This document shows positions 2,100-8,417 of a stretch of DNA of 10,833 nt, in pieces (the first letter of the stretch is position 1; every line of letters starts with the position of its first letter). Below the pieces are notes generated by a model. It was not told the DNA's origin. It did not search any database and saw only the letters and a list, made by a program, of their open reading frames with translations. A program made the position numbers and the translations under genes. This DNA comes from Campylobacterota bacterium (lineage in GTDB: Bacteria; Campylobacterota; Campylobacteria; Campylobacterales; Sulfurovaceae), in the NCBI GenBank assembly GCA_003646525.1, contig QMKU01000020.1:1-10833 (forward strand), read 5' to 3'.

Positions 2100-2105
2100 T
2101 TGAAA

Positions 2106-3305
2106 ATGAAGAGAAGATATTTGAGTGTGATGATCAGCCTGTCTATTTTGGGTATATTTGCAAATGCTGTCGAAGTTAAGCCTACGCAAAAGAAACCGAC
2201 TTTTGAAAAAGTATGGCAGGAGATTTATGGTGGGAGCGATACAGATAGGGCGATGGCGGTTGTAGCACTAGAGGATGGCGATGTTGCCATAGCTGGGACT
2301 TGCAAGTCTTTTGATTCGGTACAGAGTGATATCTGTGTAACACGCGTCAATAGTAAAGGAAAAACAGTTTGGCGCAAGATGCTTGGTGGTAAAAATATAG
2401 ATCTAGCTTCAGGAATATCCCGAGCCAAAGATGGTTCTATACTAGTAGTAGGAACGAGCCGGTCTTTCAGCAAAAGCAGAGACCGTGACATCTATGTCGC
2501 AAAAATTTCTCTGGATGGGAAAGGTATCTGGCAGACGACATTTGGTAAAGAGCGAGCAGAGTATGGGCGTGCTATTGCAGGGACAGATGATGGCGGTGCG
2601 ATAGTTGTAGGTGAAAGTGAATCTTTTGGCAATGGTTATAAGGATATTTATATTGTCAAGATGGACAAAAATGGTCGTATGCTTTCTGAGAAAAAGATAG
2701 GAGGAGAGAAAGAAGAGTTGGTGCGTGGATTGACTCGTACGCTTGATGGAAGTCTGGTATTGGTCGGTTCACGGGAGCTTGATCGTGCAGGCGATAGCGA
2801 CTTTTTTCTTCTCAAGATGGATCAAGATGGTAATAAAATATGGGCACGGACTTATGGTGGCGAGTATGAAGATATCCTCAATGCCGTCACTCCTACACTT
2901 GACGGCGGTATTGTAGCGACAGGATATACACGCTCTTTTGGAAGTGCACAGACCGATTTGAGTGTGATGAAATTTAGTCAGAAAGGTGATCTTATCTGGC
3001 ACAAGATTTATGGGTACAAGCACTATGATTTTGCAAATTCTATCACTATGACGAGAGAGGGAGATTTTGTCATAGCAGGCGGAACCAATTCGATGGGTGA
3101 AGGGGTCTATGATGTTTATGTATTGGCACTAGACAGAGAGGGTGAGCTTTTCTGGTCAGGACTCTATGGTGATATCAATACTGACATAGCCAACGGCATT
3201 ACGCGTACTAGTGATGGCAGTATCGTTGTGGTAGGAGAGAGTGATAGTTATGGTAATGCCAAAGATTTTTTTCTGCTCAAGCTTAAAAAAATTACAAACA
3301 AGTAA
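2106..3305 (+). CDS. Exported seven-repeat protein, probable seven-bladed beta-propeller
   Basis: The protein is 399 residues from the ATG at 2106; an in-frame TTG at 2100 is rejected on ribosome-binding-site spacing. The N-terminus is a signal peptide (basic MKRR, hydrophobic core, FANA cleavage motif near residue 23), so the protein is periplasmic or secreted. The mature part is seven consecutive repeats of about 52 residues beginning near 37, 89, 142, 194, 246, 298 and 350. Each roughly follows W..xYGG..xD.a..i....DG...v.G.t.S.g....D.yv.k.d..G. Seven such units with strand-like hydrophobic stretches suggest a closed beta-propeller. No catalytic motif is evident; binding or scaffolding is possible. 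It ends 22 bp before the DUF1538 gene on the same strand and may be cotranscribed with it, which would place a periplasmic partner next to a membrane protein. That link is inference. Confidence 0.85.
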   Translation: MKRRYLSVMISLSILGIFANAVEVKPTQKKPTFEKVWQEIYGGSDTDRAMAVVALEDGDVAIAGTCKSFDSVQSDICVTRVNSKGKTVWRKMLGGKNIDLASGISRAKDGSILVVGTSRSFSKSRDRDIYVAKISLDGKGIWQTTFGKERAEYGRAIAGTDDGGAIVVGESESFGNGYKDIYIVKMDKNGRMLSEKKIGGEKEELVRGLTRTLDGSLVLVGSRELDRAGDSDFFLLKMDQDGNKIWARTYGGEYEDILNAVTPTLDGGIVATGYTRSFGSAQTDLSVMKFSQKGDLIWHKIYGYKHYDFANSITMTREGDFVIAGGTNSMGEGVYDVYVLALDREGELFWSGLYGDINTDIANGITRTSDGSIVVVGESDSYGNAKDFFLLKLKKITNK

Positions 3306-3327
3306 TGATGCTGATTAGAGCTTCAGG

Positions 3328-4851
3328 ATGATACAAGAGAGCTTAAAAATATTTTACCAAGATTTGCAAAACTCTTTCAAGGATCTTACTCCTATTGTAT
3401 TGGTTGTGGCTTTCTTCCAAATCTTTATCGTGCAGGCTGTACCAGAGAATCTAATCTCTATTGTTGTAGGGCTTTTCATCGTTGCAGTGGGATTGGCACT
3501 CTTTATTCGCGGATTGGAACTAGGGATTTTTCCAATAGGAGAAAATCTGGCAACTGATTTTGCAAAAAAGGGTTCACTCTTCTGGTTACTCCTTTTTGCC
3601 TTTACGATAGGATTTTCTACTACAGTCGCCGAACCGGCACTGATCGCTATTGCTGACAAAGCCGCACTTGTCAGTGGAGGTCTTATTGATGCCTTCTTTT
3701 TGCGTATGACAGTGGCACTCTCAGTTGGATTTGCTATTGCATTGGGAGTTTTCCGTATCTTGGTGGGACACCCTATACAATATTATATCATTGCAGGATA
3801 TTTGATCGTGGTGATCACTACATTTTTTGCACCCAAGGAGATCATAGGGTTGGCATATGATAGTGGTGGCGTAACAACTTCAACCGTCACTGTCCCCCTA
3901 GTCGCAGCACTTGGGATAGGATTGGCTTCTAGTATCAAAGGACGAAATCCTGCCATTGATGGTTTTGGTCTGATCGCTTTTGCTTCTCTATTGCCGATGA
4001 TTTTTGTACAGGCTTATGGGATCATCGTATACTCTTCTGTGCCAACCATCGTAGAAAAAGCAGTGGCTACTAGTCAGAGAGTAGTTGAAAAGATTGGAGA
4101 GATAAAGATGCACCATTTTGAGTGGATCGATGTTATGCTTGACCTTGTGGGTGTCATCAAGGATGTTTTACCCATATTGATGGTCATCTTCTTTTTTCAG
4201 TATTTAGTAATAAAAAAACCTGTGGCACATCTGCAAAAGATCATTGTCGGAATTATTCTGGTGATCTTAGGACTTTATGCTTTTATCGTTGGTCTGGAGA
4301 TGGGACTTTTCCCTATAGGTGAAACGATTGCCTTTCAGCTTACAGCAATGAAAAATAATCTTCTGATTTATCTCTTTGCCTTTTTGATAGGTTTTTCGAC
4401 GACGATGGCAGAGCCTGCACTTTTGGCGATTGCTATCAAAGCTGAAGAGATCAGTGCTGGTACGATCAAGCAGGCAGTCCTTAGAGTTGTTGTGGCGATA
4501 GGTGTTGCGATCGGAATCGCACTAGGCTCATATCGTATTGTTGCAGGTGACCCTATTCACTATTATATAGTTGTTGGATACATTTTGGTGATTATTATGA
4601 CTTATTTTGCTCCAAAATATATCATTCCAATAGCTTATGATAGTGGAGGGGTGACGACATCGACAGTGACGGTACCACTAGTAGCAGCATTGGGATTGGG
4701 ATTGGCAGAAAATATCGAGGGTAGAAATCCCTTGATAGATGGATTTGGACTGATCGCATTTGCATCACTCTTTCCTATGCTTACGGTAATGTTATATAGT
4801 ACCTATGTGGAGTTTGAACGAAAGAAAATGAATAAAAAAGAGGTAAAATGA
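3328..4851 (+). CDS. DUF1538 family integral membrane protein, tandem duplicated
   Basis: A 507-residue, very hydrophobic protein with roughly six to seven membrane segments per half. The two halves are homologous with a 260-residue offset. GFSTTxAEPAL occurs at 95-105 and 355-365, [13 protein letters not shown] at 178-190 and 438-450, and [17 protein letters not shown] from 205 and from 465. I recognise these as DUF1538 signatures, so this is a two-domain DUF1538 protein. A polar segment (about 240-270) separates the halves. The conserved small and hydroxyl residues within or next to membrane spans, repeated in both halves, resemble the internal pseudo-symmetry of transporters or channels. 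The substrate is unknown. The start has only a weak purine-rich site before it (CAGG). The stop overlaps the next start (ATGA at 4848-4851), indicating translational coupling to the P-II-like gene. I am not aware of an established biochemical function. Confidence 0.85.
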
Positions 4852-5198
4852 AATTTAGTGCATTGATCGTTATTATTGAAGATAAACAAGAGGAAAAGGT
4901 TATTAAGGTAGCCAAAGAAGCAGGTGCTGGGAGTGTTACGATACTTCATGGTCGAAATATGGGACTCAAAGATAAAAAAATCTTTTTTGGTTTGACGCTT
5001 GAAGAAAATGTCTCCGTCCTACTCTTTGTTTTACCTGTAAGGGTTTCCATCATGGTTTTGCGAGCGATAAGGCTCAGTTACGATTTGGATAATCAAGAAA
5101 ACAACAGTTTGGCATTTACGCTGCCTCTCAGTCATGTTGTAGGGTTAGATATTGCAGAGTTACATAAATTCAAAGATGATATTAGTCATCTATTATAG
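4848..5198 (+). CDS. P-II-like signalling protein
   Basis: A 116-residue protein, close to the usual ~112 of GlnB/GlnK. The N-terminal pattern ([11 protein letters not shown], then a helix, then [14 protein letters not shown]) matches the first beta-alpha-beta unit of P-II, and [16 protein letters not shown] resembles the last strand and helix. The segment equivalent to the T-loop (after HGRNMG, about residues 40-55) is short and lacks the uridylylated tyrosine of GlnB. The glycine-rich B-loop (TGxxGDGKIF) is replaced by DLDNQENNS. It is therefore a divergent P-II-like regulator whose ligand may not be the classical ATP/2-oxoglutarate pair. It starts inside the stop of the DUF1538 gene, with AGAGG at 4839-4843 as ribosome binding site. 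By analogy with GlnK-AmtB and SbtB-SbtA, the DUF1538 protein is its likely target. That partnership is inference. Confidence 0.8.
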
Positions 5199-5204
5199 AA
5201 GGAG
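5199..5204 (+). promoter_or_regulatory. Ribosome binding site AAGGAG for the CBS gene
   Basis: AAGGAG begins directly after the stop of the P-II-like gene and lies 5 bases before the ATG at 5210. It supports both that start and tight operon organisation. Confidence 0.75.
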
Positions 5205-5209
5205 AAAAT

Positions 5210-5605
5210 ATGCTAGTAGAAGAGATTATGACACCAGTAGATAAATTAGTTATCGTACCACAAATGTCATCAGTGCGGGAAATATTACATCTAATGAAAG
5301 TAAATAGTGTTCGATCATTGGTTGTTGAAAAAAATGGTCCCAATGGGGCGTATGGTTTGGTTACTTTCAAGAATATATTACAAAGCATTATAGCAGAAGA
5401 TGGAGATATAGATCTATTGAATGTCTATGATATCGCGGCATCACCATCCATCTCTGTCTCTGCCAAACTTAATGTTAAGTATGCAGCTCGTATGATGGTG
5501 AGAGAGAGTATCAAGCGGCTTTTGGTTATCGACAATAATGAGCTTGCAGGCTTATTGACTATGACTGATATCATCACGGTGATGATGGATGAGATAGAAA
5601 ACTGA
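5210..5605 (+). CDS. Stand-alone CBS-domain pair protein
   Basis: A 131-residue protein consisting of almost nothing but two CBS motifs. The first is about residues 1-58 (VEEIMTPVDKLVIVPQ, then VNSVRSLVVEKNG and GLVTFKNIL). The second is about 70-131 (YDIAASPSISVSAKLNV, then IKRLLVIDNNELAGLLTMTDII). Such pairs form Bateman modules that usually bind AMP, ATP, SAM or related ligands; which one applies here cannot be read from sequence. It has no signal peptide or membrane segment, so it is cytosolic. It starts 11 bp after the P-II-like gene with a strong ribosome binding site and is the third gene of the DUF1538 cassette. In many transporters (MgtE, CLC channels, OpuA) a CBS pair gates transport as a fused domain. 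A gating role as a separate subunit is plausible here but inferred. Confidence 0.88.
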   Translation: MLVEEIMTPVDKLVIVPQMSSVREILHLMKVNSVRSLVVEKNGPNGAYGLVTFKNILQSIIAEDGDIDLLNVYDIAASPSISVSAKLNVKYAARMMVRESIKRLLVIDNNELAGLLTMTDIITVMMDEIEN

Positions 5606-5620
5606 TTTTTTTGCTATAAT
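5606..5620 (+). promoter_or_regulatory. Extended -10 promoter for thrC
   Basis: TTTTTTTGCTATAAT follows immediately after the CBS stop codon: a T-run, the TG extension (5612-5613) and a perfect TATAAT (5615-5620). This matches the known Campylobacter/Helicobacter-type sigma-70 promoter. Transcription would start near 5627, about 24 bp before the thrC ATG. It makes thrC an independent transcription unit, although no terminator separates it from the cassette upstream. Confidence 0.75.
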
Positions 5621-5650
5621 AAGAGATAAGAACAGATAGGATGAAAATAG

Positions 5651-7117
5651 ATGCAATTTATAGAAACACGCGGAAACGATGGTAACAGAGCAGAAAAGAT
5701 AGATTTTTCGGATGCAATTTTAAGTCCTAGTGCCAGTTATGGTGGACTCTATGTGCCTGAATCACTACCAGCAATGGATTCAATTTTTTTACGCAAACAT
5801 CTTGATAGTCATTACAAAGAGTTGGCTGCTGACTTTTTACAGGCATTTGAGATTGATATTGATTCTGCCATTATCACAGAGGCACTTGATCGCTATGATA
5901 CATTTGATGATCCCTCCGATCCTGTACCTTTGGTTCAGATTGAAGAAGATTGTTTTGTGAGCGAACTATACCATGGGAAAACGCGTGCCTTTAAAGATAT
6001 GGCACTTCAGCCTTTTGGTTATATTCTGAGTACGCTAGCACAAAAGAGGGGTGAAAACTATCTCATCATGGCAGCTACTAGTGGTGATACTGGACCAGCG
6101 ACATTGGAAACTTTCAAAAATCAACCCAATGTCAAAGTAGCCTGTATCTACCCTTCTGGTGGCACTAGTGATGTACAGAGATTACAGATGGTTACAGAAG
6201 ATGCAGAGAATATCAAAGTGATCGGTATCAAGGGAAATTTTGATGATGCTCAGAGTAGTCTCAAAGAACTTTTGTCCTCGCAGGAGTTCAGAGATGAGCT
6301 TACCCGACGCAATATCAAACTCTCTGCTGCCAATTCGGTTAATTTCGGACGCATTATCTTTCAAATCATTTATCATATTCATAGTTATCTGGAATTGGTT
6401 CGCAAAAAGATTATTGCCTTGGGTGACCCCATTTATATGGTTGTTCCTAGTGGAAATTTTGGAAATGCATTGGGTGCTTATTATGCCAAAAAAGCAGGAT
6501 TACCGATCAAAAAGATACTGATCGCATCAAATATCAATAATATTTTGACCGATTGGATCAAGACGGGTATCTATGATTTGACTGACAGAGATTTGATACA
6601 GACCGAATCACCAGCGATGGATATTCTCAAAAGTTCCAATATTGAACGAGTCATGTTTGATAAATTCGGTGGAGCACGCACCAAAGAGCTTCTCGAAGCA
6701 TTGAATGAAAAAGGTAAATTCCAATTGTCTCCAGATGAGTTAAAAAGCTTAAGAGAAGACTTTGATGCAACATTCAGTGATGATGCTGAGGGAGAAGCTG
6801 TGATCGCAGAATATGCGCAAAAGAACTATATCATGGATCCCCATACAGCTACTAGTCTAAAAGCATATCACAACCTCAGAAACGAGAAGCTACCTACCAT
6901 TATCTATTCAACAGCTGAATGGACAAAATTTAGTACAACAGTATCAAGAGCACTAGGACATCCGGTAGCTAGTGACTTGGATGCTCTAAAATGGGTAAGT
7001 AAAAACAAAGCGATTGAAGTACCTGATATGATCAGTACATTATTTGACAAGGCGATCAAACATACAGTTGTTGTAGATCAAAAATCTATAAAGGAGGAGA
7101 TGTTAAAGTTTTTATAG
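5651..7117 (+). CDS. thrC: Threonine synthase
   Basis: A 488-residue PLP enzyme that converts O-phospho-L-homoserine to L-threonine in the cytosol, the last step of threonine synthesis. The N-terminal segment (FIETRGND...PSASYGGLYVPESLP) is the typical threonine synthase N-domain. The AFKD motif supplies the PLP-binding lysine (K115). ATSGDTGPA follows, and SGNFGN (from 267) is the phosphate-cupping glycine loop. The C-terminal DPHTATSLKAY and STAEWTKFS are also family features. Length and motif order fit the longer bacterial type found in E. coli. The start at 5651 is the only sensible ATG; AGG at 5638-5640 is a rather distant ribosome binding site, and the ATG at 5641 is out of frame. Nothing about its neighbours suggests a threonine operon; homoserine kinase and dehydrogenase genes are not in the window. 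Confidence 0.97.
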   Translation: MQFIETRGNDGNRAEKIDFSDAILSPSASYGGLYVPESLPAMDSIFLRKHLDSHYKELAADFLQAFEIDIDSAIITEALDRYDTFDDPSDPVPLVQIEEDCFVSELYHGKTRAFKDMALQPFGYILSTLAQKRGENYLIMAATSGDTGPATLETFKNQPNVKVACIYPSGGTSDVQRLQMVTEDAENIKVIGIKGNFDDAQSSLKELLSSQEFRDELTRRNIKLSAANSVNFGRIIFQIIYHIHSYLELVRKKIIALGDPIYMVVPSGNFGNALGAYYAKKAGLPIKKILIASNINNILTDWIKTGIYDLTDRDLIQTESPAMDILKSSNIERVMFDKFGGARTKELLEALNEKGKFQLSPDELKSLREDFDATFSDDAEGEAVIAEYAQKNYIMDPHTATSLKAYHNLRNEKLPTIIYSTAEWTKFSTTVSRALGHPVASDLDALKWVSKNKAIEVPDMISTLFDKAIKHTVVVDQKSIKEEMLKFL

Positions 7118-7133
7118 TTTTTAACATTTTATT

Positions 7134-8417
7134 ATGAAAAAGAGTATTTTTTTATTGGGTAGTATTATAATATCGACAAATGCTTATGCTGGTGATAGGA
7201 GAATGGTGGATTGTCGTCTGGCAACAGCAAAAACCACTGAATGCAAACCTTATCCATCCAAGTTTATGTTTACGGAGAAGCTTATTTATGGCAAGGATAG
7301 CCATAAATTGATCATTTCCAAAACTCTTCCCCCAGAAGCAAGACACAAAATTCTAAAAGTGATCAATGTTGAAGATATGATAGAGAAGCATCTTGTAGTA
7401 CTCGACCCTATTCGCTTCAGTGGTAGCCAGCCTAGTCCCCTGCGAAAAACTGCAGAGGAGATCAGAGAAAAAGAAGCATTCAGAAAAGAGATGCTTGAAG
7501 TGCTAGCAGCCTATAAACTAGAAAAAGAGAAATGGGAGCTTCGAAAAAAACAGGAGCAAGAGGTCAAAGAAGAGGAAATAAGAGTAGCACAAGAACAAAA
7601 ATTTAATGAAGAAAAGGCAAAACAGCTAGAAGAAGATAAGAGAGAAAAAGAAGCATTCAGAAAAGAGATGCTCGGGGTACTAGCAACCTACAAGCTAGAA
7701 AAAGAGAAGTTTAGGCTTCGAAAAAAAGAGGAAGAGAAGCAAAAAACTTTAGCTAAAAAGAACGCATTTGAGAAGAGAGCAAAAAGGTATGCAACATATG
7801 CTGTGCAGAGTGGAGATTCTCTCATCTTGATTGCTAGAGAATTTGATCTAAGTGCAAAAGCAGTATTGCTAGCCAATGATGACCTCACGCGTGACAGCAT
7901 CTTGAAGATAGGACAAAAAATATTTATACCTACTCTCCAAAAAAAGGTTGATTTTATTGTCAGAAAAAGAGAAAAAGAGAATCTAAAAAAGGCAAAACAG
8001 AGTAAACTTGCTAAAAAACTTGAAAAAAAATATCTTTATCTTAACAAGAAAACACGAAGAAAAGTCTCGAATGAGTATGATAAAAAACTTTTCAAAACAC
8101 TCAAAGGCAAACGCAAATTGCGCGTACAAGCCACAGCCTATACTTCTCATGGTAACCAGACGGATAGTACACCGTTTTTAGCGGCATGGAATAACCGTAT
8201 TCGACCAGGTATGAAAATTATTGCCGTATCGAGAGATTTGATCACCAAGTATGGACTTGGAAATGGTAAAAAGGTGAGAATACAAGGCTTGCCTGGCTAC
8301 TATACTGTTCGTGACAAAATGAACAAACGATATACCAAGCGCATTGATATTTATATGGGAATGAATCGCCGAAAAGCATTGCGTTGGGGACGAAAAAGAA
8401 CAGTTATTTACTGGTAA
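7134..8417 (+). CDS. Exported LysM and 3D-domain cell-wall protein
   Basis: A 427-residue protein. The N-terminal signal peptide (MKKS, hydrophobic core, NAYA before GDRR) sends it to the periplasm. A short globular part with two cysteines follows, then a strongly charged K/E/R-rich helical, probably coiled-coil region (about 105-220). Next come a LysM domain (about 221-267, YAVQSGDSL...LKIGQKIFIP) that binds peptidoglycan glycan, a second lysine-rich linker, and a C-terminal 3D-type double-psi barrel domain (about 329-427). The last keeps QATAYTS, TDSTPF, VRDKMN and RIDIYM with their aspartates. Related 3D/MltA-like domains occur in lytic transglycosylases and in Rpf/YocH-type wall proteins, so remodelling of peptidoglycan is likely, though the reaction is not proven. 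The helical region holds a 29-residue internal duplication. No ribosome binding site lies just before the start; the next ATG (7203) would lose the signal peptide and is rejected. Confidence 0.87.
   Translation: MKKSIFLLGSIIISTNAYAGDRRMVDCRLATAKTTECKPYPSKFMFTEKLIYGKDSHKLIISKTLPPEARHKILKVINVEDMIEKHLVVLDPIRFSGSQPSPLRKTAEEIREKEAFRKEMLEVLAAYKLEKEKWELRKKQEQEVKEEEIRVAQEQKFNEEKAKQLEEDKREKEAFRKEMLGVLATYKLEKEKFRLRKKEEEKQKTLAKKNAFEKRAKRYATYAVQSGDSLILIAREFDLSAKAVLLANDDLTRDSILKIGQKIFIPTLQKKVDFIVRKREKENLKKAKQSKLAKKLEKKYLYLNKKTRRKVSNEYDKKLFKTLKGKRKLRVQATAYTSHGNQTDSTPFLAAWNNRIRPGMKIIAVSRDLITKYGLGNGKKVRIQGLPGYYTVRDKMNKRYTKRIDIYMGMNRRKALRWGRKRTVIYW
7464..7550 (+). repeat. Intragenic direct repeat, copy 1 (87 bp)
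   Basis: Encodes residues 111-139 of the LysM/3D protein, beginning REKEAFRKEML. It matches 7641-7727 with a 177-bp offset; the first 32 bases are identical and 25 of 29 encoded residues agree. The frame is kept, so this is an in-frame duplication of a helical unit. Confidence 0.9.
7641..7727 (+). repeat. Intragenic direct repeat, copy 2 (87 bp)
   Basis: Second copy, residues 170-198 of the same protein. It differs from copy 1 at four residues (E/G, A/T, W/F, E/R). The 30 residues between copies are also charged helix, so the true duplicated unit may be the whole 59-residue period with the rest diverged. Confidence 0.9.

Follow-up and report, generated by a model that had tools for sequence, protein, structure and literature searches.

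A putative PII-gated cation/proton antiporter of the DUF1538 (UmpAB) family with a CBS-pair co-sensor in Campylobacterota

PII proteins are trimers, and some of their relatives are associated with membrane transporters. GlnK is genetically linked to AmtB, and the PII-gated transporters covered in the available part of a review carry nitrogen compounds or bicarbonate (PMC10710835); the PII-like protein SbtB comes with its own Na+-coupled transporter, SbtA (PMC8352866, available text); and PII-NG, encoded beside czcABC, and CPII are PII relatives outside nitrogen control whose genes lie near transporters, CzcABC being described as a proton-cation antiporter in the accessible portion of PMC7726332. 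Nucleotide-sensing CBS pairs also control ion transport, as in MgtE and CorB/MpfA (PMC10710835, same part). The membrane protein family DUF1538 has a characterised pair, UmpAB of Halomonas zhaodongensis, for which the available text of PMC5484666 describes Na+(Li+,K+)/H+ antiport. Here, we analyse a stretch of 10,833 nucleotides from a Campylobacterota bacterium of the Sulfurovaceae (contig QMKU01000020.1; hereafter the window), in which three consecutive genes encode a fused DUF1538-DUF1538 membrane protein, a PII-like protein and a CBS-pair protein. Together they form a conserved unit, and the operon is probably an ion transporter under the control of two small cytoplasmic sensors. As a more specific reading, which we consider rather likely, it would be a PII-gated cation/proton antiporter of the DUF1538 (UmpAB) family with a CBS co-sensor.

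The link between DUF1538 and PII is most evident at the level of whole genomes. Among 249 Campylobacterota genomes, DUF1538 is present in 40, and the PII-like family, searched with a profile built from DUF1538 loci (E <= 1e-5), is present in exactly those 40, a two-way co-occurrence. This family has 44 matches in the phylum, 43 of them at DUF1538 loci and one, partial, elsewhere in a single genome (G027). At the 43 loci of these 40 genomes, the PII gene is adjacent to the transporter gene in 31 (in one of which, L039, it is cut by a masked stretch) and fused to the C-terminus of the transporter in the other 12. The sequence-only reading of this DNA, which had proposed a transporter controlled by both sensors, had set the tabulation of DUF1538 neighbours beforehand as its refutation test; the outcome went against refutation, with a PII partner at every one of the 43 loci and a CBS gene within 1.5 kb of the transporter at 25. 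In the 101 Aquificota genomes, DUF1538 occurs in 14 and the PII-like family in 13. The Fisher values for these associations (3e-47 in Campylobacterota and 2e-15 in Aquificota) take no account of common ancestry and serve only as a description. The fourteenth Aquificota genome (L203, 841-1180) holds an 83-residue DUF1538 remnant followed by a 50-residue CBS fragment, the remainder and the PII gene being lost, which suggests that this cassette decayed as a whole.

A set of named genomes, partly overlapping the first one, gave a similar picture: in the best 80 of 574 confirmed places, PII and CBS genes are both present at 74 and the fusion at three, with a PII gene near the contig end at L106, a contig ending inside the gene at L156, and no PII nearby at L123. 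On plasmids of Clostridia and Alphaproteobacteria, the PII gene lies directly downstream of DUF1538 at nine of nine loci. Public annotation already has a "P-II family nitrogen regulator" beside DUF1538 at seven of these, the other two records being unannotated there. The partner on the clostridial plasmids is a tandem double PII in all six cases; it measures about 220 residues in L073 (6484-7152), L074, L075 and L079, with Pfam detecting the C-terminal copy alone in L073, while L070 carries the two PII-like parts as separate genes. In addition, L071 (5713-7576) and L072 encode a second DUF1538 paralogue that has diverged strongly, accompanied by its own PII gene; it is about 22% identical to the window protein, and in its first AEP motif, which is disrupted, the glutamate is kept. 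Six phage-labelled DUF1538 records, which are unverified metagenome or isolate fragments, were counted apart and not taken as phage genes; all six have PII beside DUF1538. Four of them, labelled Bacteriophage sp. and unverified (L204-L207; MT835548, MT837261, MT835770 and MT839021), encode DUF1538 with a double PII and are probably bacterial DNA in a virome. Scans of viral contigs for DUF1538 returned pattern matches and zero confirmed relatives. At the unfused transporter-PII junctions, an exact 4-bp overlap is found in 81 of 134, duplicate genomes included.

The CBS protein follows a narrower distribution. The second of the two tandem motifs in the window protein carries GLLTMTD, which we take to fit the signature G-h-x-T/S-x-x-D. 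With a strict profile (E <= 1e-22), its family was detected in 27 of the 249 Campylobacterota genomes, all of them among the 40 with DUF1538; it is present in 27 of the 29 genomes with an unfused DUF1538 gene and in none of the 11 whose sole copy is the transporter-PII fusion, which ties the CBS protein to the unfused form. It was not found at the plasmid loci (0/9) or at the phage-labelled loci examined. Of the two sensors originally proposed, PII thus stands at 43 of 43 loci, while CBS is not universal. In some genomes the CBS protein may have been swapped for another sensor. In G116, two GAF-domain proteins flank the transporter-PII pair in its place, the arrangement seen at L038 (4777-7598), where Pfam identifies such proteins, a possible substitute sensor, on either side of the pair and CBS is lacking.

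The assignment of the second gene to PII, already made from the sequence alone, has held because of its relatives. Taken alone, the window protein has no Pfam or NCBIfam match and its match to SbtB is no better than E 0.47. The profile of its family, in contrast, hits PII proteins of solved structure (best 9p1x, E 7.9e-9; MJ0059, E 3.2e-6), eight of nine related sequences pass the PF00543 cut-off, and the model of a fused homologue has a PII domain with the PII ferredoxin-like fold, for which SbtB and CPII top the fold list. In a set of about 50 effective sequences, residues 34-54, which we assign to the T-loop, are the most conserved part of the family, with a mean of 3.30 bits versus 2.97, 2.66 and 2.44 in the other segments, the lowest value being that of the nucleotide-loop region (residues 81-116). 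Thr31 and Gly39, positions that presumably line the adenine side in PII structures, are nearly invariant.

The membrane protein scores 468.6 bits against DUF1538 (PF07556; gathering cut-off 22.6; E 2.3e-141), with two domains, and its halves are 54% identical across 235 residues, which bears out the duplication noticed earlier. In NCBIfam, the N-terminal half is closest to the UmpA model and the C-terminal half to UmpB. At least 4,896 relatives scored at E <= 0.001 in one search; one of the proteins seen, P0122 (759 residues), has three DGFGL motifs, which may reflect a third repeat or an assembly oddity. The AlphaFold model of the window protein (predicted local distance difference test, pLDDT, 87.0; predicted template modelling score, pTM, 0.86) gave no confident match to any solved structure in two fold searches; SbtA and AmtB were absent from the lists, and NCX_Mj recurred at noise level. 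Two glutamates and two aspartates, at or near the helix breaks of both repeats (Table 1), are invariant and would be the natural candidates for an ion site. On family resemblance, the protein probably works like UmpAB. UmpA and UmpB jointly confer salt and alkali tolerance on E. coli KNabc, everted vesicles with UmpAB show antiport dependent on Na+, Li+ and K+ by direct dequenching, and the pair needs no PII of its own for activity, according to the available text of PMC5484666; the earlier view that the substrate was wholly unknown must be given up at the family level. Two papers on cable bacteria regard UmpAB as a possible salinity adaptation, and a machine-learning study counts DUF1538 among key families for pH adaptation (PMC12093952, PMC10030654 and PMC13255231, in their available parts). 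The DUF1538-PII link, the transporter-PII fusions and the CBS co-sensor were not found in the literature searched, outside which most subscription papers fall.

Compared with the closest described systems, the window protein resembles UmpAB in having two homologous DUF1538 units of the same Pfam family that would act together, and differs in that these are fused in one chain, score below the UmpA and UmpB cut-offs, and have PII and CBS partners. Like GlnK with AmtB, a small PII protein is genetically linked to a membrane transporter, a T-loop gate being the proposed analogue; here, however, the membrane protein belongs by sequence to another family, the cassette adds a second sensor, and the T-loop segment is about six residues shorter than that of Methanocaldococcus jannaschii GlnK1 and lacks the GlnB/GlnK ligand contacts. 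The likeness to SbtB-SbtA extends to the fold of the fused PII domain, whereas SbtA is not among the fold matches of the membrane part, fused forms exist here, and the window PII-like protein has no cysteine and therefore no C-terminal CGPxGC loop, a feature of some SbtB members only (PMC8352866, available text). By gene context, PII-NG beside czcABC is the nearest precedent, even though the partner here is a DUF1538 protein, putatively for monovalent cations. Contrary to MgtE and CorB/MpfA, finally, the CBS pair is a separate protein in a PII-containing operon and, within Campylobacterota, is confined to DUF1538 genomes.

In the mechanism that we propose, the membrane protein would exchange Na+ and/or K+ for H+ by means of its two related repeats, with their conserved acidic residues at helix breaks, and the PII-like trimer would bind it directly, docking on its cytoplasmic face as a dedicated gate. 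By default, the short, strongly conserved T-loop would hold the transporter shut, in the way that GlnK blocks AmtB and SbtB presumably blocks SbtA, and the PII-like protein would release it upon a change in the energy or metabolic state of the cell. Given SbtB and CPII, adenine nucleotides would be the first guess for what releases this brake, and the CBS pair would serve the unfused form as an additional sensor of adenine nucleotides, reading the same pool as PII. A brake is the simplest role for PII because UmpAB is active without its own and one metagenome-assembled genome (MAG) seemingly keeps the transporter alone. The fusions have one PII domain per transporter, which suggests a 3:3 docking as in SbtA-SbtB (PMC8352866, in the part available), although the tandem double PII of Clostridia shows that one geometry cannot hold everywhere. 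Tentatively, the same could apply to the family in Aquificota, Campylobacterota, Clostridia and Alphaproteobacteria: a PII branch with a rebuilt ligand site may gate Na+ or K+/H+ exchange, whether it forms a separate trimer aided by a CBS adenylate sensor, comes as a tandem double PII or is built into the transporter.

Several observations weigh against this antiporter reading. The locus L123 (4953-6503), in a MAG assigned to Sulfurovum, stands alone among the intact DUF1538 loci seen in lacking a PII-like gene, and the DUF1538-PII link is therefore not absolute. The rest of this MAG, which may be incomplete, showed no member of the PII or the CBS family; unless it is incomplete there, the exception is real, and a joint loss of both sensors is possible. 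The residues that make the canonical ATP phosphate and 2-oxoglutarate contacts in GlnB/GlnK, numbered Q39, K58, K90, R101 and R103, are replaced both in an alignment of 25 sequences and relative to MJ0059, which may leave the protein blind to the usual PII signal. The T-loop of the fused model has low confidence (577-581 under pLDDT 50), which makes this model uninformative on docking, and the tandem PII proteins of Clostridia fit poorly with a simple 3:3 picture. The CBS gene lies away from the transporter in G204 and G210, and it can be absent by the strict profile from genomes with the unfused form, as in G060, whose transporter is divergent, and G116. As for the transporter, each half misses the equivalog cut-off of its closest model (NF041627/NF041628) by a wide margin (N-terminal 309.8 versus 490; C-terminal 264.8 versus 500), and the whole chain reaches 531.2 for UmpA, over the cut-off solely by summing its two halves, and 465.4 for UmpB, which is why we file it as a member of the DUF1538 family and not as UmpAB. 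A Na+ or K+ substrate for the window protein would thus be a family-level transfer from one study. The available text of that study (PMC5484666) mentions neither PII, P-II nor CBS, and the E. coli cells used there contain endogenous PII proteins, which means that UmpAB was active without a cognate PII.

The near-perfect co-occurrence and the fusions would also suit a PII-like protein that is a permanent subunit or assembly factor of the transporter, always bound and sensing nothing, as would the loss of the canonical ligand residues and the weak conservation of the nucleotide-loop region. We find this unlikely: the presumed adenine-side residues are nearly invariant, a CBS sensor accompanies the unfused form, the L123 MAG, for all its possible incompleteness, has a transporter with PII undetected, and UmpAB works without a PII of its own.

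The surroundings of the cassette bear on the substrate of the proposed antiporter. K+ genes are found in the fetched stretch (up to 13 kb) at eight of the 43 Campylobacterota loci, from three bacterial families, TrkA and/or TrkH at seven of them (Pfam confirmed six of the K+ proteins, at three of the eight loci), while by our estimate, based on about one trk locus per 2-Mb genome, chance would give less than one case in 43, loci within a family being non-independent. These neighbours fit a role in K+ and pH balance. At L049, the K+ channel and TrkA genes lie directly upstream of the fused gene, and a TrkA-type K+ channel, a TrkA protein and the DUF1538-PII fusion form one run of overlapping genes (2725-7016). 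Such a context argues against the transport of another ion, such as bicarbonate or ammonium, with PII reporting on carbon or energy status in the manner of SbtB and CPII. This substrate is improbable in our view, even though SbtB and CPII head the fold list of the PII domain and many of the Campylobacterota and Aquificota carriers are, we presume, autotrophs. Other papers attach the Na+(Li+,K+)/H+ label to several unrelated families as well, reportedly from the same group and assay, so the label may be broad. However, DUF1538 also occurs on plasmids of Clostridia, where a link with carbon fixation would not be obvious, and the dequenching observed with UmpAB depended directly on Na+, Li+ and K+.

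A PII-like and a CBS protein match two receptor folds for cyclic di-AMP, and the window CBS protein has a weak match to the CbpB model (E 0.018). This nucleotide is the usual signal for K+ transport, and PstA/DarA (PII-like) and CbpB/DarB (CBS-type) are among its receptors. That the two sensors read it is nevertheless very improbable: the diadenylate cyclase domain occurs in one of the 249 Campylobacterota genomes, against 11 of 14 control genomes, and a search of the genome from which the window comes, itself incomplete, did not find it. As a shared ligand, cyclic di-AMP was dropped for Campylobacterota, where it is largely refuted. That the three genes are functionally uncoupled neighbours, brought together by common descent or coincidence, is hardly credible and is refuted by the locus survey and the genome-level PII and CBS co-occurrence. 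Although thrC and a LysM gene recur too (in nine and eight fetched loci, counting the window and duplicate genomes), gene families from outside the cassette each recur in 11 of 57 loci at most, versus PII in all 43 of Campylobacterota, and the set stays together where its order is PII-CBS-transporter (L065, L066 and L068).

Table 1. Features of the DUF1538-PII-CBS cassette in the window.
Feature	Position	Strand	Basis
Fused DUF1538-DUF1538 membrane protein, 507 residues (UmpA-like half, then UmpB-like half)	3328..4851	+	Open reading frame list, Pfam
DUF1538 domain 1	3394..4026	+	E 7.9e-71
Glu102 codon, invariant, helix break of repeat 1	3631..3633	+	Alignment of 60 homologues, model secondary structure
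Asp178 codon, invariant, few residues before second helix break of repeat 1	3859..3861	+	60-homologue alignment, model
DUF1538 domain 2	4174..4803	+	E 1.1e-72
Glu362 codon, invariant, repeat 2 equivalent of Glu102	4411..4413	+	60-homologue alignment, model
Asp438 codon, invariant, repeat 2 equivalent of Asp178	4639..4641	+	60-homologue alignment, model
ATGA overlap, transporter stop / PII-like start	4848..4851	+	Letters rechecked
Dedicated PII-like protein, 116 residues	4848..5198	+	Family profile vs solved PII proteins; genome co-occurrence
T-loop segment, PII residues 34-54 (our assignment)	4947..5009	+	Most conserved part of family
AAGGAG, ribosome binding site of CBS gene	5199..5204	+	Letters rechecked
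CBS-pair protein, 131 residues	5210..5605	+	PF00571, two stretches, E 1.2e-17; partner-family search
Extended -10 TGCTATAAT between CBS stop and thrC	5612..5620	+	Letters rechecked; absent from scanner list

The anatomy described from the sequence alone is all present: the three open reading frames, the ATGA overlap, through which translation of the PII-like gene may be coupled to that of the transporter, and the 11-bp gap after the PII-like frame, in which AAGGAG ends five nucleotides 5' of the CBS ATG. The separate promoter claimed for thrC fares less evenly: its extended -10 is perfect and probably marks the downstream border of the cassette, yet a consensus scanner that requires a -35 box did not report it, and the promoter-like sites which that scanner finds in 3200-5750 are at chance level (8 versus 8.4 in shuffles). 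Upstream, the open reading frame at 2100-3305 (DUF5122/PQQ propeller), 22 bp before the transporter, finds no relative at E <= 1e-20 across the rest of the loci examined and is therefore placed outside the unit. Further downstream, a LysM-domain protein is encoded at 7134-8417 and recurs, with thrC, near the cassette in eight loci, window and duplicate genomes included.

PII-gated transporters are already known, and the new aspect would be a PII partner for the DUF1538 antiporter family, for which the linkage is strong and the control mechanism is proposed. The genes next to DUF1538 that carry a P-II family regulator annotation would gain a concrete partner, and the natural transporter-PII fusion would be a ready construct for structural and transport work. 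PII proteins are among the most widespread signal proteins of bacteria, and an antiporter link would extend their control to pH and K+/Na+ balance; if true, pH and K+ homeostasis would be tied directly to the metabolic state of the cell.
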